64,000 bases of DNA from positions 1-64,000 of IMG/VR virus record IMGVR_UViG_3300030406_003049; one strand, 5' to 3'. The position numbers and the translations under genes were made by a program. Below, in pieces: positions 3,713 to 38,109 of this stretch. Source of the DNA: a virus. The notes below the pieces were generated by a model, which saw only the letters and a list, made by a program, of their open reading frames with translations, searched no databases and was not told the DNA's origin. The first letter of the stretch is position 1, and each line of letters begins with the position of its first letter.

Positions 3713-5278
3713 ATGGTAGTAAATGAAGAAATATTTGTAGGAAGTGGAGCGACACTAAGTTTTGTTCCCGAAGTAGATTATTATATTAAAAAAACAGCAG
3801 TTAGCGGTGATGAATCAACAATTACTTTTCATGGCGACCAAGCACATTTCCGTTTAATAAAAGACTTATATGTTGGTTGCACCATTGATAGATTTGATAA
3901 TAATAATGTATTAAAATCAACACATACTATTACTGGTAATTCGGGTAGTTCTGCTTCTTCGGCTACAATAACTTTTACCCCTACTGCAAAATCAACCGCC
4001 ACTAATGACTACTATGTTATTAGAGGCTATGGCGCACCATGTCCTGCTCCTGCACAAAATAGTAAATCTACATTAAACGCTGATAATTTTATTGGTTTAG
4101 TAGAATCAGCAACATTCCCAAACTTAGAAGTAGAAATGAAACAATTGAATTTAAATTTAGGTGGAACAAGAAACTTTACTCATCAGTATAAAGGAATAGA
4201 AACTGCTAGTGGTGGAAATATTGCTTTGATTGCTAATCAGGGCCATTGGCTATATTATGCTCTTGGGAGATGCACCGCTACAACTATTCCTGCCGGAATT
4301 AGGTCAGCCGCTACCGCAGGTAGTTTTTCTGCTCCATATACTGTAAATAGTGCAGATGCTAATACTTTCTTACACGATGATACTTCACACATTGAAGATG
4401 GCCCTATATTTTATAGAACAATAGGAAATAGTATTACTCCTCCACTAATGCCGACAGACACAACAGTAGGACAATTAGTGGCTTTGGCTTCTTTGTCAGC
4501 AGGTAATTTTGCTACTAACTTTATCACTTATACGATTAATGAACAAGACACTTCAAAACTTCCTTCATTTGCTTTAGAACAATCTATTTCAAAAACTGAT
4601 ACAAACTTACTAACTGATATAGATTCAGCCGCAACAGAAAGTCATAACTTTGTCCGTATTGCTAGAGGAAATAGAGTCAATACTCTAACAATAACCGCTA
4701 ATGAAAATGAAGAAGTTAAAATGACTATGGACTTAAACAGTAGTGCGGTAAATGCTTTAGACATTGATGAAGAAATGTATGCTAGAAACAATGTTGCCGA
4801 TGTAGAAAATTTCAGCAATAGAAAGAATGCTCAAGCAGGACACCTAGAACCATTCTTTTTCAGTGATGGTATTTTTAGTGCCTTTGGACATACTTTCTTG
4901 AAAATAACTAACTTTACTTTAACTATCAACAATAACATACAAGATAAAAGATTTGTTGGAGTAGGCAGTAAATCGGTTAAACAAGGAATACCTGCACAAA
5001 GAACATACGAACTAACTTTTACTGCGTTAGTCACTGACGATAGATTGTTTAGAGAATTGTTAAATCAAGCAGAAGATACAACAAACGATATTACTTTGCA
5101 GTTTGATAAGAGCAACGGAGAACAAATAAAATTAGTTTTTGAGAATGCTTTTACTAGTGCGGCTAACTTTACTATACCCGACGATAAAGGGCCAATAACA
5201 GTAGAGGCCACTATAATGCCTAGAGGATTAAAGACTAATGGTTGCACAATTATTACTCATGCAGGTTTGATGGGGTGA
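3713..5278 (+). CDS. Major tail tube protein candidate
   Basis: 521 residues, start ATG after a GGAGAGGGGAGAT purine run. Rich in beta strands and in Thr/Ser/Asn, few Cys, no membrane segment. The C-terminal part (LTFTALVTDDRLFRELLNQA, then ITLQFDKSNG and a final EATIMPRGL) has the pattern of tail tube subunits, in which a long helix-loop separates strands of the sandwich. It is about twice the size of a minimal tube protein, so an extra surface domain is likely in the first half. It is followed by a tiny Lys-rich protein and the frameshifting tail chaperone, the usual order in siphoviruses. Confidence 0.6.
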   Translation: MVVNEEIFVGSGATLSFVPEVDYYIKKTAVSGDESTITFHGDQAHFRLIKDLYVGCTIDRFDNNNVLKSTHTITGNSGSSASSATITFTPTAKSTATNDYYVIRGYGAPCPAPAQNSKSTLNADNFIGLVESATFPNLEVEMKQLNLNLGGTRNFTHQYKGIETASGGNIALIANQGHWLYYALGRCTATTIPAGIRSAATAGSFSAPYTVNSADANTFLHDDTSHIEDGPIFYRTIGNSITPPLMPTDTTVGQLVALASLSAGNFATNFITYTINEQDTSKLPSFALEQSISKTDTNLLTDIDSAATESHNFVRIARGNRVNTLTITANENEEVKMTMDLNSSAVNALDIDEEMYARNNVADVENFSNRKNAQAGHLEPFFFSDGIFSAFGHTFLKITNFTLTINNNIQDKRFVGVGSKSVKQGIPAQRTYELTFTALVTDDRLFRELLNQAEDTTNDITLQFDKSNGEQIKLVFENAFTSAANFTIPDDKGPITVEATIMPRGLKTNGCTIITHAGLMG

Positions 5279-5453: not shown

Positions 5454-5819
5454 ATGACTGAAAAGAAAGTGATTAAAGATAAGAATGTGCTATTTGCACT
5501 ACAAGAGCCTACGCTACATTATGTTAAAGTAGCACCCGACCAAGAAGAATATCTAAAAGTGTGGGTAAAAGAACCCACATGGTTAGAGGCTGAAAAGGCC
5601 ATGAATAGCATGATGAAATTAGATGCTAAAACCCAAGATGTAGATATTGATATTAACGCCATGTATCGTTATATGGTTGAAAATTTCATATCAAAAACAG
5701 AACCCTCCCTCTCCACTATTGACATGTTAAGGTTAAGTCCTTATGTCGGTAATCAATTAAAAGAAATACTACCTAATCCTATGACTGTTTTACAGGAGGA
5801 CAACGAAAAAAAGGAATAA
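5454..5819 (+). CDS. Tail assembly chaperone, short (G-type) product
   Basis: 121 residues from ATG 5454, with GAAGGTGGATAAT in front. Acidic, helical protein (MYRYMVENFISK; TIDMLRLSPYV) lying between the tail tube and the tape measure, the place of lambda gpG and its analogues, which hold the tape measure protein during tail assembly. The last codons contain an A AAA AAG slippery heptamer, and a long open -1 frame follows, giving a longer GT-type product. Order, size and frameshift together make the call strong although the sequence itself is not recognisable. Confidence 0.75.
   Translation: MTEKKVIKDKNVLFALQEPTLHYVKVAPDQEEYLKVWVKEPTWLEAEKAMNSMMKLDAKTQDVDIDINAMYRYMVENFISKTEPSLSTIDMLRLSPYVGNQLKEILPNPMTVLQEDNEKKE
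5807..5813 (+). promoter_or_regulatory. Programmed -1 ribosomal frameshift site (A AAA AAG)
   Basis: The zero frame reads GAA AAA AAG GAA TAA. Slipping back one base on AAA AAG re-pairs both tRNAs fully, the same heptamer as in bacterial dnaX, and the stop lies only two codons downstream. The -1 frame then stays open to 6026. Confidence 0.8.
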
Positions 5820-6028
5820 TTGAGAATACTATTAGGGGAAAGCCTAGCGACCCCAAAACAGTATTCTTAATTTTGACTTATACATTGGCTAGTGCTTTAT
5901 CTATAAGTCCTTTAGAAATATACAAAATGCCGACAAGTCTTGTTATGGACTTGTTAATGGTTCACGGAAGTATGGAAAAGATTAAACAGGAAGAATTAGA
6001 CAAGGTAAAACGACAAGCAGGGATTTAG
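5813..6028 (+). CDS. Frameshift extension (T-part) of the tail assembly chaperone
   Basis: After the slip, translation continues for 71 codons to TAG at 6026-6028, giving a fusion of about 191 residues from 5454. The extension is hydrophobic-helical (TVFLILTYTLASAL, LVMDLLMVHGSMEK) and ends in a charged helix, like T-domains that contact the tail tube. It has no good start of its own, and the tape measure ATG is at 6030, one base after its stop. Confidence 0.8.
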   Translation, partial: GIIENTIRGKPSDPKTVFLILTYTLASALSISPLEIYKMPTSLVMDLLMVHGSMEKIKQEELDKVKRQAGI

Positions 6029-6029
6029 T

Positions 6030-7838
6030 ATGGCCGATGATGAAGTTGTCAAACTTGTAGGCAATCTAAATGATTTAAATTCTGTTTCCTATAAAGCGGG
6101 ACTAGAGTTTAGGGGTCTTACTAAGCGTCTTATCGTAATGTCCGATAGTGTATCGGGCGCAGGTAAAAAATGGACTATTTTTGCTAGGCTTGTTTCCGGT
6201 AGTCCACTATGGAGATTACAAAATAAAGTTAGGGCGTTTGTTGATTCTTTAGCATTAATGGAGGAGGCTTCAAGAAAAAATACGGAAGCCCAAAAAGCGG
6301 CTGATGAACAAGTAATAAATTTAGTTAAGAGTCAGCGAATGCTAACTAAAGTAGAAGAAGAAGGGGCTAATGCAGGAAAAACACAAGTAAAAATTATACA
6401 GGAACAACTTAAATTACTAAAACACCATTTAGACTATCAAGAACAATATGGCGATTCTATATCTAATAATTTATTGATTGAGAAAAGAATAGAAGAACTA
6501 ATGAACGAGGCTAATACAGAACGAAGGGAAGCAATACAAAATACAGTTGCTTTCAATAAAGCCTTATTATTAGGAAAAAGCGACTTAGAAGCATATGCAG
6601 AAGGAATGGAAGAACTAATAGCAAAAGCAGACCAAATGCAAGAGACTTTTGAAGATGCACAAAAGGCCGCTAAACTCGCTGAAAATCTAAAGATAAGAGA
6701 TATGAGCGACCCGAAAGAAGCAAAGAAAAGAAAAGAAGGAGTAAAAGCGGCAAGAGAACAGTTCGGAAGTTTCTTTAGTAAGGAAAAAGGAACAGAACAA
6801 AAAGAATTTATAGAAATGTTAGCAGAAAGAAAGAAAGATGAAAAATCTTTTGGAGGAAAAGCACTATTCTTTCTACAAAAGAAAAGACAACAAATGTTTA
6901 ATTTTACTGTAAAATACCAAAAGTTCATGCTAGGCGTTGGAAAAATGGCTAGACCAGTTCTAAATTATGCCTTTAAGGTAATGATTATGATTATGTTAGG
7001 TATTGTCGCTTTCTTAGCCTTTGCTAAAATAGCCTACGAAGCCTTTGGATTTTTACAAGAATTTGGTGTCTTTGAAGACCTTAAGAGAATAGGAATGTTA
7101 GTTCTTGATACGGCTAAAAATATTATAGGATTAATAATGGCCGTTGTCAGTGGAGATGTATATAAGTTCATAGAACATGGAGAAAAGATAGTTAAAAATA
7201 TAATAGCCATAGGAATATTAGCAGTTGCGGCAATATTAAAAACACTATTCGCATTAGCAGTAGGGGCATTTTATAGCATAATAGATTTCATAGAGAAATT
7301 AAAAGATGATAAAGACTTACGAAATAAAGTGTTTGAAATTATCATGAAAGCCGGTGTTTTATTGCTTGCCGCATATTTTATTAAATATCTAGCAATAAAA
7401 CTTATGGAAATAGCCGCTATCTATGCACTTCCTGTATTAATAGGAGTTCTTCTTATAGCAGGAATAACTGCTCTCTTGTATAAAATCGTTAAGGACTTTA
7501 AAATAGGTAGAGTTTTTGAAGGTGCTAAAAAACTCGGAGGTAAAGTTAAAAGTTTTGTAAAAGACAAGATAATACCTAGAGCCACCGGAGGTATAGTAGG
7601 TAGTGGAGAAACAACTCTTGTTGGAGAAAGAGGGCCGGAATTAGTTAAATTACCCGCAGGTTCAAGAGTTCACACCAATGACGCAAGCAAGAAAATGGCG
7701 GGTCATACGATAAATAATACATTCAATATAACAGTTCATGGCGGTCTTTCTAATGTTCCTAAGTTGGCTGAACAATTAGGTAAAGAAATAGGCAATAAGA
7801 TAACGAGGCGAATATCCTCAAGCGGATTATTTAGGTGA
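6030..7838 (+). CDS. Tape measure protein
   Basis: 602 residues. The N-terminal 300 are long charged helices; roughly residues 300-490 hold several hydrophobic segments (VMIMIMLGIVAFLAFA, LLLAAYFIKYLA, VLIGVLLIAGITALLY). The C-terminus has the typical end of tape measures: TGGIVGSGETTLVGERGPEL, then PAGSRVHT. It sets tail length and passes into the host envelope during DNA delivery. At about 1.5 angstrom per helical residue it would suit a tail near 90 nm, a rough inference. It follows the frameshifting chaperone by one base. Confidence 0.85.
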   Translation: MADDEVVKLVGNLNDLNSVSYKAGLEFRGLTKRLIVMSDSVSGAGKKWTIFARLVSGSPLWRLQNKVRAFVDSLALMEEASRKNTEAQKAADEQVINLVKSQRMLTKVEEEGANAGKTQVKIIQEQLKLLKHHLDYQEQYGDSISNNLLIEKRIEELMNEANTERREAIQNTVAFNKALLLGKSDLEAYAEGMEELIAKADQMQETFEDAQKAAKLAENLKIRDMSDPKEAKKRKEGVKAAREQFGSFFSKEKGTEQKEFIEMLAERKKDEKSFGGKALFFLQKKRQQMFNFTVKYQKFMLGVGKMARPVLNYAFKVMIMIMLGIVAFLAFAKIAYEAFGFLQEFGVFEDLKRIGMLVLDTAKNIIGLIMAVVSGDVYKFIEHGEKIVKNIIAIGILAVAAILKTLFALAVGAFYSIIDFIEKLKDDKDLRNKVFEIIMKAGVLLLAAYFIKYLAIKLMEIAAIYALPVLIGVLLIAGITALLYKIVKDFKIGRVFEGAKKLGGKVKSFVKDKIIPRATGGIVGSGETTLVGERGPELVKLPAGSRVHTNDASKKMAGHTINNTFNITVHGGLSNVPKLAEQLGKEIGNKITRRISSSGLFR

Positions 7839-8515: not shown

Positions 8516-9649
8516 ATGTATGACATTCTACTAGGAAAACAGAAAGGCTTAGTGTTTCCTGTTATGTGTAATGCTCATGTAAAAATAGACTATAGCGATA
8601 ATGTGCCGGATTTGAATTATGGTATATGGGAGCATACTGGTTCATTTACTTTTGAATCTATTATTACTCCTTATGACATAAACGGAGTAGGGCAGTTGTC
8701 GGCTCAATCAAGATATAATCCTAGACAAACAAAGAAAGTAATGCCTAGTGTTCTTTATTCACAAAATGCAGGAGCAGGAGGACAAAACCAAAGCGAACTA
8801 TACTTGCCTCTAGCAAAAGCAAACACCATAACTAGGTTTACACATGAAATGAGAATTTTCTCTAGCACTAATTATTACATTTCATTAGTTAATTCTACAA
8901 CTCACAATGAAAATCAACCTGCTGAATATAAAATAAAAGTTGGAGTTAAATTAGGAGGCGTTGATTATACTATGATAACTGACAATGCCGTTATAACTGC
9001 AACAGAAGGAGTAGGTTGGCGTAATGGTTCAACTTCTTTTCCCACATTAGAAGGCTTTGATGAAAACGGTAGAATAAAATATATACATGCCGGAACTACT
9101 GATGCTAATAGTAGTGGAACTACAATTAATGTTGATAGCACTACAAAGTTTCATCAATTTCAAGAGGTATTTACAAGAGATGGATTTAATTTTACTTCTT
9201 TAGGCACTATCGCATCTAATGGTATAAATACAGGCGTTAGTTTTGTTTTAGATAATGCACCATCAAGCACTTTATCTTCGGGAGTAAAGATATTTATTCC
9301 CGCATTCAAAGAACCTGCTTATATCAACAATCAATTTCATATCGCTTTTAGTTTTACACAAAGAAAAAATAGCGTAGGTAGAATATTCTTGAATGGTATA
9401 TTAATCAAAGAACAAGAGTTTTCTTCCGGTAGTGCGGTTTTCTCAATGGCTTCCGAAGATTTGTTTATCGGTGCTTCTAATAATCAAGGAACTGGTGCTG
9501 ATAGTGCGGGACTCAATAAACAGTTTATGGGTGAACTTCATGAAATTTGTATGACTTCCGATATTAGAAAGAAGTTTTTAACCAATACTTTAATGCCTAA
9601 TTCGGATAGCACTTTAATGTATTTTAAATTTGAGGAGGGGGATTTGTGA
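8516..9649 (+). CDS. Tail-tip protein with a LamG/concanavalin-like C-terminal domain
   Basis: 377 residues, ATG 8516 behind TAGGTGATAGT. The last ~130 residues show the LamG/concanavalin pattern: HIAFSFTQRK, VGRIFLNGILI, LFIGASNN, then FMGELHEICM, as in carbohydrate-binding jelly-roll domains. It could bind host surface glycans or hold the fibre. The middle contains a TTINVDSTTKF segment similar to repeats in the large downstream protein. Its TGA overlaps the GTG start of that gene. Confidence 0.6.
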   Translation: MYDILLGKQKGLVFPVMCNAHVKIDYSDNVPDLNYGIWEHTGSFTFESIITPYDINGVGQLSAQSRYNPRQTKKVMPSVLYSQNAGAGGQNQSELYLPLAKANTITRFTHEMRIFSSTNYYISLVNSTTHNENQPAEYKIKVGVKLGGVDYTMITDNAVITATEGVGWRNGSTSFPTLEGFDENGRIKYIHAGTTDANSSGTTINVDSTTKFHQFQEVFTRDGFNFTSLGTIASNGINTGVSFVLDNAPSSTLSSGVKIFIPAFKEPAYINNQFHIAFSFTQRKNSVGRIFLNGILIKEQEFSSGSAVFSMASEDLFIGASNNQGTGADSAGLNKQFMGELHEICMTSDIRKKFLTNTLMPNSDSTLMYFKFEEGDL

Positions 9650-12600
9650 GAGTAATAGCAAAGAAAAATTCTTCCTTTACATTACAATGCACTAGAGGAA
9701 GTTCTAATAGATTAGATGTTCCCCAAAGTGCTGATTCCGATAAAATTAGATTAGGTCAAATAGTAGAAGGAGATGTTATTCCGGCAGGAACTTATGTTAC
9801 TCACACTAGCCTTAATCCACCATCACAAATATTTTTAGAAACAAATGGCGCAACAACTACACTACCTAACAGTTTTAGTCCCGCTACTCAAACTATTACT
9901 TTCACAAGAACTGCAAGCCAAATGACAAATAATCCAATGTTATATGCTACAAATGTCTTATCACAAAATAAAAGAAACTTTGTTGCGATTACTCCCGATG
10001 ATGCAGGAACTTTAGTATTAACTCCGCTAGGAAGAAGCACTTTGGCTAATTGTTCAATTACAAATGATGATAGATTAATTACACTATCAAGTGGAAACAC
10101 TAGCAACTTATCCGTAGGAGAAGCCATATACAATGTCAATTTACCGGAAAATACAAGAATAGAAAGAATACTTAGCGATACTTCTTTTGTAGTGGACAAA
10201 GAACCAATATCAACTGCTAGTAGTCAAACGGTTATTTTGGGAATGGAATATGAAAATTTACAGACAACAGAAGGATTCAAAATAAAGTCTTATGAAGATT
10301 CTACAGAAACAGGCATTAGAATAAATACGGTCAATTTAGATACTCATTATTTATTCATTATGATACATTCCGATGATTTCAATTCACACCATTTTACTAG
10401 AGTAAAAGAAAAACTTACTGATGATGTTGAAGGGGATTCATTTGAGATTGAAAATCCTTTAGGCGAACAAATACTAGAAGGAACTAAATTTACTTTGTAT
10501 AGTTTACCTATACCAACTAGCAATCACCCTGTTTGCATTGGAGCAGGGATTAAAAACCCAACACATGATTTTCATTGTGCAAAGCCTTTATTTTATTTTT
10601 TTGAAGACCATTCTTCCGAAAAAGACGGCTTGGATTTTGGACAACTATATAGCATAAAAGCGGTAGAAGAAAATTTTACATCAAATGCTACTGCAACTTT
10701 GACTCATGTTAGTAAATTCACTACCATTCAAGACTTTGGTAGAGATATAATAGACAGTAGTAAATATTCACTTAAAGCAAAAATAGTAGATAAATTGGTT
10801 TCACTAGATAACGAAGTAGAACGGGTATATACATCTAATGACTACAACGAGGGTGCTTTTGTGTTTAGCAACTTCGGTGCTTCTACTGTTTTTAATAACC
10901 AACCTGTGCATACTTCTACTGTTTTAGAAGACTATGCCGTAAACTCAAGGAGAGATGCTGACGATAGCATGATAAGTTCATCGGTAGGAAGCGGAACAAA
11001 CAATGTTCTACTAACAGGGCCAACTAGATATGTTCATTATGCTGATTCAAAAGATAAATCAAACTTGACATATAATGTTCTTGATTGTAGATTATCGGAG
11101 TCTTTTGGTAAAAAGGGAACTATATCGGAAATAACAATAGCCGACCCATATAGAATACTTCCTCTTAAATTAAAAGAGGGTGATAAACTTAGAGTAAGAC
11201 ATGAAGTTTTCAAAGGAGATTTTAACGAATTTAAATCCTTTAACGCAAGCGTAGCCACAAGTGCTTCGGGACAAACCTATACAATTAATACAGAATTTGA
11301 CTTAGGTAGTTTCTTGAATGCAGGTGAAGAAGTTAGGGTTGGGAGTAGAATTTTTATTGTAAATAGTTTTGGAACTTTTAATAATTCTACAAAAACACAA
11401 ACGATTACCTTTTTGAATGAAAACAGATTAGAAACAGAATCAGTATTTGCTTCAAGTAGTTATGCTTTAGAAGCAGGAGCAATATTAGAAAGAAGGGCAT
11501 TTAGTAAAATAGATAAAACCCTCTTAACAGACTTTAAAACAATATCCGCAAGAGAAGGAGATATATTTGTTAAGATGTTTTCTTCCGACTTTTCTTACAG
11601 TTATGCAACCGCTACATCAGTAGATGCTGAAAAGAATTTAATTACTTTAGATTTATTTGATAGCGGCTATTATACTTCTACTCAACCTATGACTTTGTAT
11701 CATAATGGAGTGACTCAAATAGATTATATGGAAGGTCAATATGCTATTTGTTTAGAAAAGATTGATGGGGTAATAGAAAAAATTGAAGAGTTTAAAGAAA
11801 ACGGTTTAACTCAAACAAAAATAATAGGCAGAAGTAATGTTAGAAAACTTATTTCTCCATTAATAACAAAAGATGCTTTATTCTCGGAAGATATGATTTA
11901 TTCTTCTAACAGTCCATATAACAAACTTACAGGATTAGGTGTAAACATAAACTGTTATTTCAATACTAATACAATTACAACTTCGGGTTCTATTACTCTA
12001 GCCGCAGGTGATAGAATACATGTTAGATACAAAAGTGGTATGACTGCCTATGTTGGGGAAATCGCCACAGGAGCAACAGGAACTAGTTTTACATTAGTGG
12101 ATTTTTCAAGAGCGCATGTCGGACAAGGTTCTACGGCTTTAACAGGATTCAAGGAAGCAAACAAAAATTATGTATTTAACAAGGCTTTGGCTTCTAATAC
12201 CTATATTGATTCTTTAACGAGCCTTGACGGTGCTTCTAATAAGGGACTTGTTTTTAAATCGGGCAATCAAATTAGTTCTACGGGTGTGGAAGGAAGTAGT
12301 TTGATAGGAACTAGCCACAATACCAACAATAACGCTCTAGGATATAACATAGATAATGCTAAGAAAATGAAAAGCGATTCGCACTTTCAAACTACTTTAG
12401 AAAGCACCGATTTTGATGTTATCAATACCCTAATAGATTTTGAAATAGTTAGTGCTGAAAGCGACGGGTCAAGGGCAACTAATCTTGTTATTGCCCCTTA
12501 TGTTCCTCTATCTTTAGGTAGAGTAGATATTAATTATGCTAATACAAATGATACTACTTATTCCTCCGAAAACATAGGTGATATTTCTTATGATATGACA

Positions 12601-15600
12601 ATGCCTAGAAGACATATTGAAGTTTCTTCTCAAGCAGTATTTGATGGAACTAAAACACTTGGCGATGATGATTTCTTTGAGTCTAAAAGAATAATTAAGG
12701 CTTGTTCATCAGCAAGACATATTAGAGGAACTAGAAATTTACACGGTAAACCTATTTTTATCAATGGTAAATTTTTAGCCAATATCATTCAAGTTAATGG
12801 AGAACATGTCAAGCAGGGCGTATATCCCTTTAATGCAGGAACACCTACTTTAACAGGCTTAACAAAGACACAAACCGATGGCTTATCAACAGGAATGACC
12901 CTACAAGGAACTAATGTGGGAGTTAATAGAATTATCACATCAATTACTGAAGACTCTATTACCCTAAATCAAGCACCAACCGGAACTGTTAGTTTCGCTA
13001 GGTTTGAAAATTGGAGATACCAAAATGTGAATAACTTTGTGGTTCGCTCCACTAGAATATACTTGGATAGAGAAGTCGGTTTTGAAACTATAATGTCTAA
13101 GTCTGTTTCGGGAAGCGACACATTAATTGTAGAATCTACAGAAAAATTATATGTGGGTATGAAAATAAGCGGAACTTCAATAACTGCGGGAACAACTATT
13201 ACGAAGATAAACAGTATTAATTCTATAACAATGAGCGCAAACGCTACAGGGACTAATAGAAGCAATAGAAATTTCTTTTTGGCTCAAGGCATACAAATAG
13301 ACAAACTAGAAGGCCATGCTAAAGAAGATGTGAATGTTTTACCAAAAGCAACAAGGGCAACTAAAGAAAGTTCAAAACTAACACACGAATTAAATCTCAT
13401 AAATGGTTCTCACTTACATACTGCAAAAATGATAGGTTTACTTCACCCTTCTCTTGCTACACAAAACACCTACAATAAAACTCTTTTAATGAATTATCCT
13501 TTAACTGCTTTACAAGACCACGACCAGCATTGTGTTAGTAGTTTAGTTAAGAACTTTAATTTAGATGGAACTACTGATAATAAAGATTTAATTAATAAAA
13601 GTTCACAAGAAGTATTTGGAACTTCTTTATACAGATTATTAAACATAGAAAGAGGGAACTATAATAAAATAATACCAAAAATAGTAGATGTTGATAATGT
13701 TCAATTCTATACAGAAAAACTTAGTAGAATAAGATATTATACTAGTGCTTATAAATTTAATAGGGGTTATTATTTAGATGGAATATTAGAAAATAATATT
13801 ATTGGGACAGATATAACAGGTTTAAGTTATATCGGCACAAATCAAATAGAAACATTTAGTGGCTCGGAGTATATAGAAGCCGCTACGAGTCAAACTCTCA
13901 ATAGTGGAGATGGTTCAGTATCAACTACTGCTTCACCAAGAGTAGGTCAAATGATTATTGCTAATAATATACCGGATAATACTTTTGTAAAATATTCTAG
14001 TTCCGAGTTTCAAAGTCCCAATACAGAATTTATATTGACAAAATCAGGAACAGGAAATTCGGGTGGGTTAATAGCCGCTTCTTGTTTTGAGTTTGATTAT
14101 AAGAGAATGCCGGAAAGTAGGGGTTTTATTCCTGCTACCGGAGATAGATTTTTTGAAATGACTACGCTTGAAAAAAGAAACAATTTCATACTCGCACTAA
14201 CAGGAACAGGGACAACTGCGGCATTACCTTCAACATTAGACATGGGAGTTGGATATAATAACTACCATGACGGTTCTCCTCCTATGGTTTTATATCCTCC
14301 TAATCCAACAATTGAGGTAGAACAAATAGTAGATGATACAGGGACTACATTAGATGGAAAAATAACAAGTCCGTTTTTAATTAAAGATAGGTTTCAACAC
14401 ATAGACCCTAAAGTTGCTAGAATGTTTTTATTCTCAAATGCAGATACAATGCCTTACTCTTCTACAAGAAAGGATAGTCTGTTTTATCAAAATAGCGAAA
14501 GAAAACTTATCAATTACAATATTATGTTTTTGAAAGAAACTAAAGAATCTCCTCATTCGGAAATTAAAGATAGTGTTATCGGAAAAACAAAAACAGTTAA
14601 TAGATTAGACAAAGACTATCACACAAGTATTATTTCTTCTGTTGCTACTGACTCTCCCGATTTATCTTCAATAAGGAGATTTGGAATAATGAGATTAACA
14701 GAAGTAGTGTATGATTTTTGTTTTAATCAATTTGACCCCGAAAATCCACCTAGCGATGAAATATTGATTCCTAAAACAACATTCCCTCATTATCATATGT
14801 TTAGAATGCTAAATAATCAAAACCCTACTAGCGGAAACGCCATATTCCTTACTGATAATTTAAGTCAAGTTATGAGCGTGTTATCTCTAAACCGCAATCC
14901 TGCTTTCTTTGTAAATGCAGGAGATTTAGTATGTGATTCGGAAGGTAGGTATATTGGAACTATTCAATCTACTAGTGTTGGTTCTAATATAACAATAGCA
15001 GATATTAACAGAAGAGGCAATACTGATGAAAAATCCGGCTACAAGACTACTATTACATTAGATGAAAAGCAATTAAATTATCCAAGAGATGCAGTAAACA
15101 ATAGGGCAGGTAGTCTACCTGCAAATCAAAGAACCCACCCTATATTTTTCATAAAAGAAGAAGAAACACAAACTGCTGACGCAAGCCATCTTACAGGTAA
15201 TGCTCAAATAACGGGTATGGGTAAAGATAATGAATTTATAACTTTAGATTCTAGCATACACCTATTAAAAAGCGCAGTAATGAGAGGGTTAGCAGAAGTA
15301 GCAGGAACAACTAATCCTTATGTTCACCATGACGGTCAAGGAGGAGTTTTTGATGCAGGAGGGACAGAAGAACTGTATGGAGGATTTAGGGACAACCATT
15401 CAGCAGGTTATGGTGGAGATGATTCTAACCAAACAGATACGGCCTTTCATTCAGCACATGGTTTTATGACAGGACAAACAATATTGTTTAATGGATTTAA
15501 AGCGGGTAATGGGGCAACTCCAAGCCCAACAAACGATGGAATATTTAATTTTACTAGAGACATAAATGTATGGCTTCCTATTAACTTTGGTTATACCCCA

Positions 15601-18327
15601 AATATATTTCAAGTCGGTAGAAGTCCTAATCCTTCGGAGAGAAGCGTATATGCAACGGGCGCACCATTCCCATTATTTATGGATTATATGGCTACTCCAA
15701 CAATTGCTAGAGATTTCAATACTGGTGAAGATATTTCATTTTCAAATCATGCCGCAGTTAGGCGGTCTTCTAGTGGCGGTCTTCAAAGCCTACAAGATTC
15801 TCAAGGACAAATACTACAGAATTTTAAACCTGTATTTTTGAGCCGATTTAGCATAGCAGGAGGAAAGGGAGCAAAGGCTGATATTGGAATGACCGGAACA
15901 AGAATAAGCGGAACTTCTAAAATGACGAGAACAACTGTAAGTAATCCACAAACAAGAGTAGGTTTTGCTATGAATAAAACCACATCTTTAACCAACGGAA
16001 CAACTCTTAGGCATAGTGGTTTTGCGGCCATGAATAAAGAAGAAACAGGATTTTTTGCTAATGATTATGATAATGATGCTGACGGTATAACCTACGGATT
16101 AAAGCCAATTATTAAATTAGATGTAGGTTTTGAATTAGAAAATGTCACTTTTAGTTCTACTGGAACTGACCTCGCTAAAGCAACACTAGCCGCACCTTTT
16201 GTCATAGAAGCAGATGGATTAGAAAGCGCACAAGCGAATAATTTTAACAACGGTTCTCAAGACTTAATAGACCAAAAGTGCGAAGTTTTCATAGTTAGTG
16301 ATGAAACGAATGGCGGTATTTCTCAACTAACTAATAGTAAAACACCAATCGGAACGAGAATAAGGCAATATACTAACAAACAAACCTCAACTGCTGAATA
16401 CTCTATCAAGATAGATAAGAATGCAGATGCAAGCGGAACTAAAGATATTATTGTTAGCAGGAATATAATGGGAACTCAATGGGCTACTTGTGGAACTAAG
16501 GTTCATGTCTTGTGTTTGACCGATTCGGATTTGAAAGCATTTGGTGTAGGGCATAAAATGTATGGTTCTCTAAATCCTAGTTGGCTAACTAATGTAGATT
16601 TAACGGGTTGTTATTTAGTATCGGAAGAAGGTAGTTTGGTATGGAATGATACAGGAAGTGTGATGCAAAACTTTGCCCCTAACAACGGTAATAATAGTTT
16701 TAGGTCGGGAAGTCATGGGGTTTTTAGAGATAGATATTCTACAAGATTTAGCGTAGATGGTGTAAATCCTAATCATATACTCTATGTTCTATCACATGAA
16801 ATAGATACTACGAGTAAATCAAGACAACATATTATTACAGTTAGTGGAGATTTGCCTACTCCTATTCTTGCATCGGACGCTGCTTCTTGCGTTGCTAGAA
16901 TGAATCACATTCAAAGATTTAGATATTATAGAATTATGCAACCTAATCACACTTGCTTTACAAGTGGTAGTCCTAATAGAATATCAATAAATCAATTATC
17001 TTCAAGATATACTAGAAAACCAAATACTGACGAATACTATGATAAAATAGGACACTATAATATTAAAGATAGCGAAGGAACTCAAATACATGAAAGCAAT
17101 AATGAAGGCATTTTATCTATGTATGTCATAGTAGACCCCGATAATCAGTCTAATGATGGTAATTTAGTTGTTAGAAACTTAAGTAATATGTCCGATAATA
17201 TTCTAAAAGAAGGACAAACCAAAATGCTATTTAGCGATGGAGATAATAAAAACTTCACATCGGTAGGTTTTGAAAAGAAAAATGATGTAGAATATTATAT
17301 TAATATAGAAAATCAAGAAGAACTACTAGGTGTTGTTTCTTGTTCGGAAACCATTTCATTAACTATACCGGAGCAATTGCCTTTTAATCCTAAGAGAGCG
17401 ATAATAGGAACTTCTGTAGATATAGGATATGATACTGATGTTTTAATTAACGATTTAATGGAAAGTAATGGTGCTGAATTTACTTTATCTAGCACAGAAA
17501 CTTATCCACATATTGTTTCTCCTAATTTTACAGGAACAGAACTATTTACTGCAATTGAATTTTTGATGAATAAAAAGGGACAAAGATTGTTAGAAAATGG
17601 AGATTCTTTCTCAATTAAATCCGATGATAATATGACGGATTCTAAATTAGCCTTAACGACTAAATCCGAAGATAACAATATATTTTCTTACTCTAAGACA
17701 AAAAGCCAATTTGATTTGTTCAATGACATAACAGTTTTAGGTAGATTTCATAAAGCGTTTAGACAAGATGTTTCAAGCATAGATAAAGTAGGAAAGAAAT
17801 CTATGAGAGTGTTTGAAGATGAATTGACTAGTCAAGAAGAAGTGGATAAAAGAGCCAATGAATTATTAAGATTACATAACGGAAGAAATTTTAATTTACG
17901 ACTCTCGGTTAATCACAACGGTTTATCACAATTAAAAACCGGAGATGTGGTTACGGTTGAAATACCGGAAGAAAACATACCTAGACAAGATTTCATTGTT
18001 TTACAAATGCAACAATCTTTAACAGGAACTATTGATTTAGAACTAGGAAATTACATTAAAGGTCTTGAAGATAGATTTGCTGAATTAGCGATAGCAAATA
18101 GAAGCACCAACAATAGAGTTAATGAAAATATCATAGATGGTTCAGCAACGCAATTTAATTTTAGGAAATTTATCAAGATAAAACCTATTAGAATCTTGGT
18201 TAGAACCGTTGGACTGACAGGCGGTGTATTTACACTAAATACAAATACAACAACACTAAATACTAACGCCAATGCACTAGGTCTAGGTGCTACCGAGATT
18301 ACTGAAATTTTGGAGGAAGACTTTTGA
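9646..18327 (+). CDS. Giant baseplate hub/tail fibre protein (2,893 aa)
   Basis: GTG start preceded by GAGGAGGGGGATTT and overlapping the previous stop. The protein is Ser/Thr/Asn-rich and beta-dominated. Five copies of a repeat of the type G-x-x-[IV]-x-x-x-x-[IV]-P-x-x-T-x-[IV] appear near residues 30-80, 143-195, 1070-1120, 1155-1205 and 1420-1472. The region from about residue 2600 (FLMNKKGQRLLENGDSFS, then QLKTGDVVTVEIPEE and IDLELGNYIKGLEDRF) resembles tail-hub domains of Tal/gp27-like proteins. So hub and surface-exposed fibre functions seem to be fused in one chain. It is by far the largest gene of the window (13 % of it). Confidence 0.75.
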   Translation: MRVIAKKNSSFTLQCTRGSSNRLDVPQSADSDKIRLGQIVEGDVIPAGTYVTHTSLNPPSQIFLETNGATTTLPNSFSPATQTITFTRTASQMTNNPMLYATNVLSQNKRNFVAITPDDAGTLVLTPLGRSTLANCSITNDDRLITLSSGNTSNLSVGEAIYNVNLPENTRIERILSDTSFVVDKEPISTASSQTVILGMEYENLQTTEGFKIKSYEDSTETGIRINTVNLDTHYLFIMIHSDDFNSHHFTRVKEKLTDDVEGDSFEIENPLGEQILEGTKFTLYSLPIPTSNHPVCIGAGIKNPTHDFHCAKPLFYFFEDHSSEKDGLDFGQLYSIKAVEENFTSNATATLTHVSKFTTIQDFGRDIIDSSKYSLKAKIVDKLVSLDNEVERVYTSNDYNEGAFVFSNFGASTVFNNQPVHTSTVLEDYAVNSRRDADDSMISSSVGSGTNNVLLTGPTRYVHYADSKDKSNLTYNVLDCRLSESFGKKGTISEITIADPYRILPLKLKEGDKLRVRHEVFKGDFNEFKSFNASVATSASGQTYTINTEFDLGSFLNAGEEVRVGSRIFIVNSFGTFNNSTKTQTITFLNENRLETESVFASSSYALEAGAILERRAFSKIDKTLLTDFKTISAREGDIFVKMFSSDFSYSYATATSVDAEKNLITLDLFDSGYYTSTQPMTLYHNGVTQIDYMEGQYAICLEKIDGVIEKIEEFKENGLTQTKIIGRSNVRKLISPLITKDALFSEDMIYSSNSPYNKLTGLGVNINCYFNTNTITTSGSITLAAGDRIHVRYKSGMTAYVGEIATGATGTSFTLVDFSRAHVGQGSTALTGFKEANKNYVFNKALASNTYIDSLTSLDGASNKGLVFKSGNQISSTGVEGSSLIGTSHNTNNNALGYNIDNAKKMKSDSHFQTTLESTDFDVINTLIDFEIVSAESDGSRATNLVIAPYVPLSLGRVDINYANTNDTTYSSENIGDISYDMTMPRRHIEVSSQAVFDGTKTLGDDDFFESKRIIKACSSARHIRGTRNLHGKPIFINGKFLANIIQVNGEHVKQGVYPFNAGTPTLTGLTKTQTDGLSTGMTLQGTNVGVNRIITSITEDSITLNQAPTGTVSFARFENWRYQNVNNFVVRSTRIYLDREVGFETIMSKSVSGSDTLIVESTEKLYVGMKISGTSITAGTTITKINSINSITMSANATGTNRSNRNFFLAQGIQIDKLEGHAKEDVNVLPKATRATKESSKLTHELNLINGSHLHTAKMIGLLHPSLATQNTYNKTLLMNYPLTALQDHDQHCVSSLVKNFNLDGTTDNKDLINKSSQEVFGTSLYRLLNIERGNYNKIIPKIVDVDNVQFYTEKLSRIRYYTSAYKFNRGYYLDGILENNIIGTDITGLSYIGTNQIETFSGSEYIEAATSQTLNSGDGSVSTTASPRVGQMIIANNIPDNTFVKYSSSEFQSPNTEFILTKSGTGNSGGLIAASCFEFDYKRMPESRGFIPATGDRFFEMTTLEKRNNFILALTGTGTTAALPSTLDMGVGYNNYHDGSPPMVLYPPNPTIEVEQIVDDTGTTLDGKITSPFLIKDRFQHIDPKVARMFLFSNADTMPYSSTRKDSLFYQNSERKLINYNIMFLKETKESPHSEIKDSVIGKTKTVNRLDKDYHTSIISSVATDSPDLSSIRRFGIMRLTEVVYDFCFNQFDPENPPSDEILIPKTTFPHYHMFRMLNNQNPTSGNAIFLTDNLSQVMSVLSLNRNPAFFVNAGDLVCDSEGRYIGTIQSTSVGSNITIADINRRGNTDEKSGYKTTITLDEKQLNYPRDAVNNRAGSLPANQRTHPIFFIKEEETQTADASHLTGNAQITGMGKDNEFITLDSSIHLLKSAVMRGLAEVAGTTNPYVHHDGQGGVFDAGGTEELYGGFRDNHSAGYGGDDSNQTDTAFHSAHGFMTGQTILFNGFKAGNGATPSPTNDGIFNFTRDINVWLPINFGYTPNIFQVGRSPNPSERSVYATGAPFPLFMDYMATPTIARDFNTGEDISFSNHAAVRRSSSGGLQSLQDSQGQILQNFKPVFLSRFSIAGGKGAKADIGMTGTRISGTSKMTRTTVSNPQTRVGFAMNKTTSLTNGTTLRHSGFAAMNKEETGFFANDYDNDADGITYGLKPIIKLDVGFELENVTFSSTGTDLAKATLAAPFVIEADGLESAQANNFNNGSQDLIDQKCEVFIVSDETNGGISQLTNSKTPIGTRIRQYTNKQTSTAEYSIKIDKNADASGTKDIIVSRNIMGTQWATCGTKVHVLCLTDSDLKAFGVGHKMYGSLNPSWLTNVDLTGCYLVSEEGSLVWNDTGSVMQNFAPNNGNNSFRSGSHGVFRDRYSTRFSVDGVNPNHILYVLSHEIDTTSKSRQHIITVSGDLPTPILASDAASCVARMNHIQRFRYYRIMQPNHTCFTSGSPNRISINQLSSRYTRKPNTDEYYDKIGHYNIKDSEGTQIHESNNEGILSMYVIVDPDNQSNDGNLVVRNLSNMSDNILKEGQTKMLFSDGDNKNFTSVGFEKKNDVEYYINIENQEELLGVVSCSETISLTIPEQLPFNPKRAIIGTSVDIGYDTDVLINDLMESNGAEFTLSSTETYPHIVSPNFTGTELFTAIEFLMNKKGQRLLENGDSFSIKSDDNMTDSKLALTTKSEDNNIFSYSKTKSQFDLFNDITVLGRFHKAFRQDVSSIDKVGKKSMRVFEDELTSQEEVDKRANELLRLHNGRNFNLRLSVNHNGLSQLKTGDVVTVEIPEENIPRQDFIVLQMQQSLTGTIDLELGNYIKGLEDRFAELAIANRSTNNRVNENIIDGSATQFNFRKFIKIKPIRILVRTVGLTGGVFTLNTNTTTLNTNANALGLGATEITEILEEDF

Positions 18328-27596: not shown

Positions 27597-27790
27597 TGAT
27601 AATGCCCCCTTCTTTTCATTTCATCAACAAATGCCGCATACTCGCCATCTAACATATCTACATACCAAAGAAGAAAATCCTCAAAGGACATATCTTCTTT
27701 AACAGTTAATTGAAACTTACCAAATTCATAAGTCCATTTTTCTCTTATCTTATCTAAATTTTGTTTTCTTTTTCTTTCTTTCAAAACCAT
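27593..27790 (-). CDS. Small basic/acidic helical protein, unknown
   Basis: 65 residues: very basic N-terminus (LKERKRKQNLDKIREK), then an acidic helical part (FEDFLLWYVDMLDGEYAAFV). It lies between the nuclease and the C-terminal polymerase gene, overlapping both. A polymerase-associated role is possible from position only. Confidence 0.55.
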   Translation of the reverse strand: MVLKERKRKQNLDKIREKWTYEFGKFQLTVKEDMSFEDFLLWYVDMLDGEYAAFVDEMKRRGHYQ

Positions 27791-28686
27791 TCCTCCAAAT
27801 TTGTTTGTATTTTACCCGATTTGATATTAGACAAATCCCAATTCATAGCCTTATAAATTGGTTCAGCCTTCTTTATTACTTGCTCGGCATAGTGTTGATA
27901 ATCGGGTTTATACTTATCAAAATCAATATACCGAGAACCTGCTACATATTCAACAGGCTTCACTTCTTTAGTTAATGGGTGTATAAATGCTTCACCGGAC
28001 TTTGATACTTTTAGGTATAAGTAAGAGTCGTCAAAAGTAATGTCGTTTTGTTTAGCATGTAATACACCCGCTATACCCGAACCTATTGTTGGTTTCTTAC
28101 CATCTAAGGTTTTGAAGTTCTTTACATCTTCACCGCACTTTTCACACCATCTTAGAGGTAAACATTCGTGTAATGTATATCTCTTATTACAACCCCACTT
28201 CTGTTCTGTAGCCTTACCGCACTTAACTTTTAACCTATTTTCTTTAAGTCTACTTCTCTTAATAATGTCCTGTAGTTCAACTTCTCCATTTAGAACTGAC
28301 ATGTATTTATTGTGTAAATACTTGTTAATTTCTAACATTGGCTTTTCATTTACCCACATAGTCAATACATCAGTTTGAACTTGTTTAGCAAGTTTAGTTT
28401 CACTAACTCTTTTAGCGGTAAAACCCGTCATAATAAACTCCGGCTCATCTAACCATTCTCCATCTTTCCAAGTTATCATACCTGCATTTCTATTCTTAGT
28501 TGTTCCAACACCTAATGCTGAATAGTATTTCTCAAACTCTAGCACTACGGGGTGTTGTTCTAATCCCATAACATTAGGGAAGTGTTCTCTAACACTAGAC
28601 TCTATTTCTTTAATAGCGTCTTGTGCTTTCTCTACAGAATCAATTTGAACATAAATTGAATCTGTATGCCCGTAAACTACCTTCAT
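27781..28686 (-). CDS. Family B DNA polymerase, C-terminal part (motif C, thumb)
   Basis: 301 residues beginning VVYGHTDSIYV, that is polymerase motif C (usually YGDTDS) at residues 5-10; the first Asp is His here. It goes on with the palm end and thumb (SALGVGTTKNRNAGMITW, MTGFTAKR) and a Cys cluster (KCGKATEQKWGC ... CEKCGED) that looks zinc-binding. The exonuclease, motif A and motif B are in a separate gene at 30010-31632 whose end matches the residues just before this start. ATG has AGGAAGTGATAAC in front. Both parts must associate to form an active enzyme. Confidence 0.85.
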   Translation of the reverse strand: MKVVYGHTDSIYVQIDSVEKAQDAIKEIESSVREHFPNVMGLEQHPVVLEFEKYYSALGVGTTKNRNAGMITWKDGEWLDEPEFIMTGFTAKRVSETKLAKQVQTDVLTMWVNEKPMLEINKYLHNKYMSVLNGEVELQDIIKRSRLKENRLKVKCGKATEQKWGCNKRYTLHECLPLRWCEKCGEDVKNFKTLDGKKPTIGSGIAGVLHAKQNDITFDDSYLYLKVSKSGEAFIHPLTKEVKPVEYVAGSRYIDFDKYKPDYQHYAEQVIKKAEPIYKAMNWDLSNIKSGKIQTNLEEWF

Positions 28687-30009: not shown

Positions 30010-31632
30010 TCAAACTTCCAACTCCTTCGCCTTGAATGCGGCTAATCTAATGGCCTCTCTAGCACTAGCAGTAATACTAGCGGCTAAATCTACATCAGCC
30101 CAACCAAATCCTTGAAACGCAAGAACACCATAGAAAGAACTCATTAGTCGCTTAACCGCCATTTGATTATTATACCACTTTTGATATTCTTCTTTGTTGT
30201 TTGCACCCTTCATTCTTTTCTTGTAATCGTTTCTTAACTCCCTTAGTTCAATTACTGCTCTAGGTAATACTCCTAATTCATCTGTGTTGTAGTATAGCAT
30301 TTGTGTTTGTTTGACTTCGCTAAAATCTCTAGGAGTTAGAATATTAACTCCAAAATCTGTGGGTTCTTTTGACTTAGTTTCCCAAGATATATTTCTAGCC
30401 ATCATCATACTAGGATATAGTTGAGCAAAGTCAAATGCCGCTACATTAAGATGTAAACCATTAGTATTCTCACTAAGCGGGTCATAAATCATAGCCCCTT
30501 GATATTCTTTTCTATCGGCACTTTTGATACCTGTTGGTGCTTTCCACCAAGCATTTCTCATAAAGTAAATAGAACCCATATGTGAAGCATAGAAGCAAGC
30601 CTTGAAAGGTGCTTTTAGTAATCTTTGTAATGATAATATTGCTTCACTACAATAGTTTGATTCATCTATTCTAACTAAGAGTTCTACATCTACTAAGGCA
30701 TAATGTAAGTATGCTTTTGTATCTTCTAGCCATGCTCTACGATAAAATTCGTTAGGGTCTTCAAACTTAGTCTCCATCACCTTTCCTTCATTAAATAATA
30801 TCTTAGAAACATAGTCAAGACTTAGCGAGGGTAGCGTTCCTCTTTGCGAATCATTCCATTGTCTTTCAAATGCTAAGTCTAAGTTAAGAGTTAGTCTTCC
30901 ACCAATAGGTTGTTCAATAGGTGAATAACCATCTTGTCTCTTAAAACTACAACCTTTCTTAAGTTGCTTAACTCCATCTATCTTATGATAAGGCGACATA
31001 ACTAAAGGATTCAAGCCTAAAGCACATGCCCTATCTAATAACTTAGGTAAGTCAAACTTAAGACCAAACCATGCAATCAACATATCGGGGTCTTTAGCAA
31101 TCATAGTTCCCATAAAGTGTTCTATCATTTCTTTTTCATTATCAAAACGATAATTGTCATTTCCTTCATAATCAGGAAACCATGCCCACTGATAATACAG
31201 TTCATCGTAATTATCATACACTACAATAGTAGTAATACAACCGTCATGTTCTCCGCCTTGCGCCCATTCCATATCCCAATACCACTTACGCATATTATAT
31301 TCGGGCATTTCATTAACTTCATCAACTGCATATCTAAATGTATAAGGCACATCAGCCTCATAAGTTTTAGTAAAGACTTGCCTAGCACCATTTATGTCAT
31401 ATGACTTTTCAACATATACTCTTTTTAGTGATTCGCCTTCTAAGTTTTTCCAATCCCCTTCTTCGTATTCAAATTTACCCTTAGTATATTTATTCAAAGA
31501 ATAAGTTGGTATTTCTTTTTCATCTGCTAAAACATAGAAGTATGGTCTAAACTCTACTTCTTCGCTTTTCTTTACTCCGTTTTCTCTCCAAGATTTGTAT
31601 ATTGTATTTCCATTTTTATTACTAATTATCAT
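30010..31632 (-). CDS. Family B DNA polymerase, N-terminal part (exonuclease, motifs A and B)
   Basis: 540 residues. Exo I WYWDMEW (117-123), Exo II FGLKFDLP (189-196; the usual Asn is not at its place), Exo III YALVD (311-315), motif A DFAQLYPSMM (401-410), motif B KRLMSSFYG (494-502; Ser for the usual Asn). It ends ...AAFKAKELEV, exactly where motif C should begin; motif C is the start of the gene at 27781-28686. Five other genes lie between. So the enzyme is a two-subunit PolB with proofreading. It stands next to PCNA. Confidence 0.9.
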   Translation of the reverse strand: MIISNKNGNTIYKSWRENGVKKSEEVEFRPYFYVLADEKEIPTYSLNKYTKGKFEYEEGDWKNLEGESLKRVYVEKSYDINGARQVFTKTYEADVPYTFRYAVDEVNEMPEYNMRKWYWDMEWAQGGEHDGCITTIVVYDNYDELYYQWAWFPDYEGNDNYRFDNEKEMIEHFMGTMIAKDPDMLIAWFGLKFDLPKLLDRACALGLNPLVMSPYHKIDGVKQLKKGCSFKRQDGYSPIEQPIGGRLTLNLDLAFERQWNDSQRGTLPSLSLDYVSKILFNEGKVMETKFEDPNEFYRRAWLEDTKAYLHYALVDVELLVRIDESNYCSEAILSLQRLLKAPFKACFYASHMGSIYFMRNAWWKAPTGIKSADRKEYQGAMIYDPLSENTNGLHLNVAAFDFAQLYPSMMMARNISWETKSKEPTDFGVNILTPRDFSEVKQTQMLYYNTDELGVLPRAVIELRELRNDYKKRMKGANNKEEYQKWYNNQMAVKRLMSSFYGVLAFQGFGWADVDLAASITASAREAIRLAAFKAKELEV

Positions 31633-37044: not shown

Positions 37045-37264
37045 TATTTTCACCTTGTTTTTTATGATGATTACAATAGCCATCTACTACTATTGCTCTA
37101 CATCTTTTACCTGTGCCTTTAGATATGCCTTTACAGAAAAAATGTTCCGGTAAATTATCTCTATCACTAAGACACGATAAACAAATTTTAACTTTAGACT
37201 TAGACCTACAACCTAAGCCCTTCCCACATATTACACAACTATGGGCGTGTATTGTGTGTTTCAT
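36992..37264 (-). CDS. Zinc-binding protein with two Cys/His sites
   Basis: 90 residues. First site CVICGKG ... CLSC, second site CKGISKGTGKRCRAIVVDGY followed by CNHH, the pattern of small DUF5763-like zinc modules (C-x-G-x-T-x-x-G-x-x-C-x-x-x-V-x-x-G-x-C-x-x-H). C-terminus very basic. Likely nucleic acid-binding. Confidence 0.6.
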   Translation of the reverse strand: MKHTIHAHSCVICGKGLGCRSKSKVKICLSCLSDRDNLPEHFFCKGISKGTGKRCRAIVVDGYCNHHKKQGENNEKKKESKNENKRDGRK

Positions 37265-38109
37265 AGAAAGTCCTCCAAAGATGAACCCTTCTTTTTTACA
37301 GTTGGTTTCTTCTTACGGACTTTCTTTTCACCTAAACCTAAATCTCTACATTGTGTATTGTTCAGTTTAGTTTTTGCATACTTAACAAAATCTTCATCAT
37401 TTGTTAATTGCTTGAATACTCTCTTGCTACCGTTCTTTATTCCTAATTTCTTAATTAAATATGAAGTCTTAGTGTATGGTCTATACTTAGGAAGATTGAA
37501 TCTACCGTAATGCTTACCATTATGAACATAGGCTAACATTTCATAGAAATAATCTTGACTCCATTTTCTTTTTACTTTAGCATCAATAAACAATAACTTG
37601 TTTGGGTGTAGATTTTCTCCCAACACATTCATTATTTGATAGTCTTTAGGTTTGTTTACCTTTAGAAGTTTAGCCATCATATCTCTATCACTTTCTCTTA
37701 GGTAATTATTAGCCAAAGTAAAAGTGTCCATGTGCATAGAATATGGTTCTTCACTTCTAGGAGCAAGTTCTTTTATTGAATCAAAAAGATGTTTGACTGT
37801 TCCTGCTCTTTTCATTTTACAAAGAGCCTTCACTTCCTTTGGAATATCCTTTTCGTTTATTGATGTGAAAATCAAACTACCTCTATATCTTCTAATTATA
37901 CGCAATAAAGATTCTTTTTGTGTATTATAATGTATATCTTCAATAATAAGTCCATTTTCAACATTAACAGAACTTGCGTCTATTTCTAATTCATCGCCAT
38001 ATAGAACCAAAGCATCTGGGAGCATTCCTTTAGCCATTGTTGTTTTTCCTGTTCCTGTTTTCCCTGTTATTATTATTGGTCTATTTCTATTCATATTTGT
38101 TAATCCCAT
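37261..38109 (-). CDS. P-loop NTPase with PCNA-binding-like C-terminus
   Basis: 282 residues. Walker A GKTGTGKT (16-23), VENGLIIEDIHYN as Walker B-like strand, SLIFTSINEKDIP as sensor strand. The body (MMAKLLKVNKPKDYQIMNVL) is helical. The last residues after a Lys-rich linker, GSSLEDFL, resemble an archaeal PIP box (Q-x-x-L-x-x-F-[FL], with Gly/Ser instead of Gln). A clamp-associated ATPase, perhaps a clamp-loader helper, is a reasonable guess. Confidence 0.6.
   Translation of the reverse strand: MGLTNMNRNRPIIITGKTGTGKTTMAKGMLPDALVLYGDELEIDASSVNVENGLIIEDIHYNTQKESLLRIIRRYRGSLIFTSINEKDIPKEVKALCKMKRAGTVKHLFDSIKELAPRSEEPYSMHMDTFTLANNYLRESDRDMMAKLLKVNKPKDYQIMNVLGENLHPNKLLFIDAKVKRKWSQDYFYEMLAYVHNGKHYGRFNLPKYRPYTKTSYLIKKLGIKNGSKRVFKQLTNDEDFVKYAKTKLNNTQCRDLGLGEKKVRKKKPTVKKKGSSLEDFL

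Follow-up and report, generated by a model that had tools for sequence, protein, structure and literature searches.

We analysed a stretch of 64,000 nucleotides (positions 1 to 64,000, the window throughout) of the virus record IMGVR_UViG_3300030406_003049, which comprises 94,947 bases, and detected in its tail module the gene for a tail assembly chaperone, G, overlapped by a second conserved reading frame, T, that is potentially reached by programmed ribosomal frameshifting. The features of the locus are as follows.

5454..5819, plus strand: G, tail assembly chaperone, short form (121 amino acids), from PHROG, relatives and predicted fold.
5794..5799, plus strand: AGGAGG, putative Shine-Dalgarno (SD)-like stimulator, 7 nucleotides (nt) before the heptamer, from anti-SD complementarity and conservation of third-position G.
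5807..5813, plus strand: slippery heptamer A_AAA_AAG, in phase with G, conserved in 191 G/T pairs.
5817..5819, plus strand: zero-frame stop TAA of G, from the sequence.
5813..6028, plus strand: T, the -1 frame extension, 71 codons and TAG, from the conserved protein, PHROG and the synonymous-site pattern.
5818..5872, plus strand: predicted downstream stem-loop, outer stem 5818-5830/5860-5872, inner hairpin 5835-5838/5851-5854, about -20 kcal/mol.
6030..7838, plus strand: tape measure protein gene, directly after T (PHROG tape measure, 2.7e-5).
3713..5278, plus strand: tail protein gene upstream of G (PHROG minor tail protein, 1.1e-11).

The G open reading frame (ORF) runs from the ATG at 5454 to the TAA at 5817-5819 and ends with GAC AAC GAA AAA AAG GAA TAA, so that the stop is the second codon after A_AAA_AAG. 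In the -1 frame, 71 codons (5813 to 6025) can be read before the TAG at 6026-6028, which leaves a single base (6029) before the tape measure ATG at 6030. A preliminary description of the locus had reported this heptamer, the stop two codons on and the open -1 frame of 71 codons up to one base before the tape measure gene, and its coordinates are confirmed. G and T are flanked by a tail protein gene upstream and the tape measure gene downstream, the gene order of G/GT loci in tailed viruses. We suggest, with a probability of about 0.93, that the locus is a programmed -1 ribosomal frameshift cassette which would yield G and a longer G-T fusion, two tail assembly chaperones from one message.

Relatives were collected by IMG/VR scans with G and T and by one signature scan, with the best 80 matches taken per scan, which favours nearer relatives; the first scan used six peptide patterns, one of them spanning the heptamer region, and the later protein scans did not span the heptamer. 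This gave 192 distinct G sequences with the downstream region, 191 of them with both parts, forming 118 clusters at 90% nucleotide identity. In all 191 distinct pairs, T is out of frame with G and their overlap contains a slippery heptamer X_XXY_YYZ in phase with G, as expected from the conservation check that had been proposed, and T as a separate gene, named earlier as the observation that would speak against a frameshift, was found in none of these pairs. The heptamers are A_AAA_AAC (81), G_GGA_AAC (51), A_AAA_AAG (26, of which 13 belong to -1 sites and 13 to a group with a -2 frame, considered below), G_GGA_AAA (15), G_GGA_AAT (8), A_AAA_AAA (6) and G_GGA_AAG (4). The seven types occur in phase only 9 times per 11,327 codons of the G bodies, compared with 191 of 191 short overlaps, and chance is therefore not the explanation.

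The heptamer is retained although the amino acid of its first codon varies (GAA, CAA, GGA, GTA, GCA). Across 42 A-type clusters, synonymous diversity at the heptamer codons is zero, the mean over 104 columns being 0.41. T codons combine conserved amino acids with high synonymous diversity, which shows T to be coding sequence; by this pattern T is under purifying selection. A homopolymer run in metagenomic data could in principle point to a fault of sequencing or assembly or to gene decay. We regard this as refuted by the relatives: 191 distinct ones from many metagenomes, the purifying selection on T and the compensatory changes in the stem described below all contradict it. Slippage of RNA polymerase on the A run, with mixed mRNAs supplying the T frame, is very improbable as well. 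Most A-type sites do have a run of seven A, and Thermus dnaX works by polymerase slippage (PMC5009743). However, 12 A-type clusters have only six A, about 40% of the clusters carry G_GGA_AAN, without a long run, and the SD-like element and stem-loop act on ribosomes, the stem-loop being not yet made as the polymerase passes.

The identity of G is indicated by its match to the PHROG tail assembly chaperone family (1.5e-5 for the window virus), which is matched by all 29 aligned relatives; the T parts of 17 of the 29 match a PHROG tail assembly chaperone family as well. The AlphaFold model of G (predicted local distance difference test, pLDDT, 82.9) resembles in BFVD the chaperones of halovirus HHTV-2 (template modelling score, TM, 0.69; E 5.8e-7) and Bacillus phage Gemini (E 9.6e-4) and, weakly, Mu FS-gp41 (E 0.032). 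A fold search of PDB with the model gave nothing under 0.001, with the HK97 chaperone 2ob9 only at E 1.7, and tblastn of G against the phage collection gave no match, even at E 1. Sequence matches and modelled fold place G among the tail assembly chaperones.

The genome encodes a bipartite B-family polymerase, the small subunit of RFC, the TFIIB-like protein TFB, an ATP-dependent ligase, an XPF-type nuclease and cpn60. Apart from the nuclease, these constitute the archaeal-type replication set of Magrovirus (order Magrovirales, host Poseidoniales), and the gene set of the window is close to that described for Aoguangviridae and magroviruses (PMC10768690). The polymerase is split over two minus-strand ORFs (27781-28686 and 30010-31632 of the window), like the described Aoguangviridae genome. 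We take the host to be a member of Poseidoniales from the kinship of the virus to magroviruses. The proposal of a programmed -1 frameshift in the G/GT tail chaperone of an archaeal virus is supported.

Upstream of the heptamer, a GGRGG core was detected at -12 to -8 with a 7-nt spacer in A-type and G-type relatives alike, although the amino acids encoded there differ (QE or EE in A-type, MG in G-type). The 3' end of Poseidoniales 16S rRNA reads GGATCACCTCCT, and AGGAGG of the window is fully complementary to it; the predicted anti-SD pairing is -5.5 kcal/mol or better in 118 of 118 clusters, 114 of which have a clear purine core at the site. The SD-like energy of A-type sites beats that of synonymous recodings (typical p 0.02-0.05 each), and third-position G is held against codon bias, with GAG at 41 of 41 positions (17% of its codons) and CAG at 35 of 36 (19%). 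The G-type relatives have 95% third-position G at the element, GGG being 9% of their glycine codons.

Initiation in this virus also uses SD sequences, which precede 61% of starts compared with 8% of random sites, and the distance between their core and the start codon is mostly 7 or 9 nt. No start codon lies at 7 or 9 nt from the recoding SD. These data bear on the possibility that T needs no frameshift, its translation starting separately at the G stop through coupling or reinitiation, for which one could cite the ATG overlapping the G stop (GAATGATT) in some relatives and the SD-like sequence upstream. We consider it highly unlikely: the window has ATA at that place, and relatives have ATA, GTG, CTA or TTA; in 49 of 108 clusters the first ten T codons include no ATG, GTG or TTG; where the ATG is present, the SD core is 16 nt away, unlike the 7-9 nt at the virus's own starts; and an independent T start leaves the conserved heptamer in the phase of G unexplained.

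Downstream of the heptamer, the window RNA is predicted to form a stem of 13 bp that encloses an inner hairpin (-20 kcal/mol) and begins 4-5 nt past the heptamer, and most A-type relatives, the window virus included, share a covarying 12-bp stem-loop at +5 nt. The hairpin that the preliminary description had recommended looking for was thus found. Its stability was evaluated by folding the first 57 nt with the T protein fixed and synonymous codons redrawn. The 60 A-type -1 clusters averaged -18.5 kcal/mol, compared with -9.0 kcal/mol for recoded sequences (z -3.2), with 44 of the 60 at p 0.02 or less; segments 60 and 120 nt further downstream had little or no excess stability. For the G-type relatives z was -0.64.

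To examine covariation, we mapped the named structure onto 53 A-type sequences aligned without gaps and compared it with slid and shuffled controls. Cells were paired in 81.1% of cases compared with 42-51% when the partner was slid, double-changed cells numbered 106 compared with 20-44, and the covariation score was 0.404 compared with 0.13-0.19. RNAalifold returned zero energy on mixed alignments and only a weak consensus on the A5 alignment. The G_GGA_AAC relatives L072-L080 and L369-L396 keep the heptamer and a GGGG element, and their downstream stem-loop is mostly absent; it is therefore likely that they have another stimulator or a different efficiency.

Several observations weigh against the frameshift interpretation. 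The viruses are uncultured, and their frameshift is predicted from sequence. The recoding test of the SD-like energy is mostly not significant in G-type relatives, because their glycine codons already supply GG. The 7-nt SD spacing is shorter than the 9-14 nt between SD and shift site at bacterial -1 sites (PMC5009743). A significant stem-loop is absent in 16 of 60 A-type -1 and 31 of 40 G-type clusters and is hence not universal. Finally, the 192nd G sequence (L533) has an intact heptamer and a T cut off after about 16 codons, which may be a deletion or an assembly fault.

According to the mechanism that we propose for the -1 frameshift, the host 16S rRNA would pair with AGGAGG while the slippery codons occupy the P and A sites, the stem-loop would oppose unwinding, and translocation would stall under tension. 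After both tRNAs had moved back by one base and re-paired on AAA AAA, a minor fraction of the ribosomes would continue into T. As in lambda, the tape measure protein would be the binding partner of G, and T would recruit tail-tube subunits.

The heptamer of the window had been called the most slippery known, and efficient slippage in Poseidoniales had been predicted from it. The extreme slipperiness of A_AAA_AAG was found in Escherichia coli and depends on that host having one tRNA-Lys (PMC5009743), whereas tRNA-Lys(UUU) and tRNA-Lys(CUU) are both present in two Poseidoniales genomes (tRNA-Asn(GUU) was found in another), and the heptamer favoured among the relatives is A_AAA_AAC (81 of 191), with A_AAA_AAG at -1 in 13 of 191. 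The window virus, with its A_AAG ending, belongs to a minority, most heptamers of the relatives ending in C. This preference would fit a host where AAG has its own tRNA. The superlative does not carry over from E. coli, and the prediction of efficiency goes too far, as the heptamer can tell only that the shift is used.

In 13 distinct relatives (8 clusters, among them L026, L035, L037, L040, L045, L062, L078, L152 and L269), T lies in the +1 (= -2) frame. They read GAA AAA AAG GAT GAT followed by TAA, TAG or TGA (in L269, GAC AAT TAA), all have seven A before the G, and the -1 frame is closed after one codon in 7 of the 8 clusters. Compared with the -1 relatives, they have one base fewer between heptamer and stem, and the position of the stem relative to T is unchanged; the stem is again more stable than synonymous recodings (z -3.6). 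The one-base difference between heptamer and stem would place T in the -2 frame with a spacer one shorter, and the A7 run most likely supports a -2 slip, since both tRNA-Lys can re-pair on AAA AAA after it.

A +1 shift leads to the same frame, the A7 run would also allow AAA-to-AAA re-pairing one base forward, and HSTV-2 is said to use +1 (PMC5009743), so that +1 is a minor but real candidate for this subgroup. We favour -2 for it, because in reporter work -2 shifting was best when the spacer was 1-2 nt shorter than the optimum for -1 (PMC7618472), matching the spacer here; because SD-stimulated +1 sites in bacteria have a spacing of 3 nt (PMC5009743), not the 7 of the subgroup; and because all 13 keep the A7 run with AAG. 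The -2 fusion would also have the same length as that of the -1 relatives. On the tree, three changes between the -1 and -2 states are needed and the starred branches force two; a single -2 clade is not rejected (approximately unbiased test, p-AU 0.074). The data moderately favour the view that archaeal ribosomes are shifted by 16S pairing with an internal SD sequence together with a downstream stem-loop, and that -1 and -2 are switched within one virus group by a single-base change of the spacer, which would provide a natural series for the mRNA-tension model.

Two further observations were made elsewhere in the window. A second ORF overlap with A_AAA_AAG, at 37297 on the minus strand (37263-37312), was rejected as a frameshift site, because it is explained by a usual ATGA start preceded by a GGAGG of its own at the normal distance. 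The tail module also includes an ORF of 2893 amino acids (9646-18327).

The lambda G/GT genes likewise overlap between the tail protein and tape measure genes and shift by -1 on a slippery heptamer, in lambda G_GGA_AAG, and lambda relies on bacterial ribosomes, unlike the archaeal virus here. To our knowledge, the signal described for lambda does not include an SD-like element and stem-loop. The preliminary description was thus right to see a lambda-type arrangement in the overlapping G and T and the -1 shift on a heptamer, but not to call it exactly that of lambda, having missed the SD-like element and the stem-loop.

E. coli dnaX shares the SD-like element, A_AAA_AAG and a downstream stem-loop (PMC3711429, PMC5009743), and differs in being a cellular gene of a bacterial host with a single tRNA-Lys, an SD 10 nt away rather than 7, and a product ratio near 1:1. 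The locus has an upstream SD complementary to the host 16S rRNA and a stem-loop in the range of 5-9 nt downstream, without the 9-14 nt SD spacing of dnaX-like cassettes; it would work like dnaX and, given the 7-nt spacing, is not classed as that type. The Mu chaperone FS-gp41 is made by a -2 shift (PMC5009743), a possible parallel limited to the 13 relatives of the -2 group, whose probable -2 state sits among close -1 relatives.

Among archaea, fucA1 of Saccharolobus solfataricus has an experimentally shown -1 shift on A_AAA_AAT with a putative stem-loop (PMC8211752); it is a cellular enzyme gene of another host, with no SD-like element noted. For haloviruses, -1 frameshifting in the tail chaperones of HVTV-1, HCTV-1, HCTV-2 and HCTV-5 was reported earlier, and one +1 chaperone case is known besides (PMC5009743, PMC8211752); the Druskaviridae are related to the marine viruses (PMC8651126). 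The haloviruses use the same heptamer types as the marine relatives (PMC5009743). We detected an SD-like element upstream of the published sites too, at 10 nt in HVTV-1 (L531, near 26965) and 8 nt in HCTV-1 (L530, near 28351), and weakly in HCTV-2. Unlike the window virus, the three haloviruses tested have no stem-loop close behind the shift site, and halovirus G was not detectably similar to the window G by tblastn in the phage collection. The recoding site is real and conserved, with a signal more complex than in the preliminary description, but archaeal viruses with such a site had been reported before. No report of frameshifting in magroviruses or Poseidoniales viruses was found in the open-access literature, within which the full signal (SD-like element, heptamer and stem-loop) and the -1/-2 switching appear to be new.

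Taken together, where archaeal -1 frameshifts comprised one experimentally shown case (fucA1) and a few predicted in haloviruses, the marine archaeal viruses offer a large set of natural replicates of a signal whose three parts can be separated, each with a different kind of evidence. This set supplies testable cassettes for the loss of frame by archaeal ribosomes, among them matched -1 and -2 versions about one base apart, and suggests that internal SD sequences are read by elongating archaeal ribosomes. For annotation, T is a coding region that is easily overlooked in these viruses.
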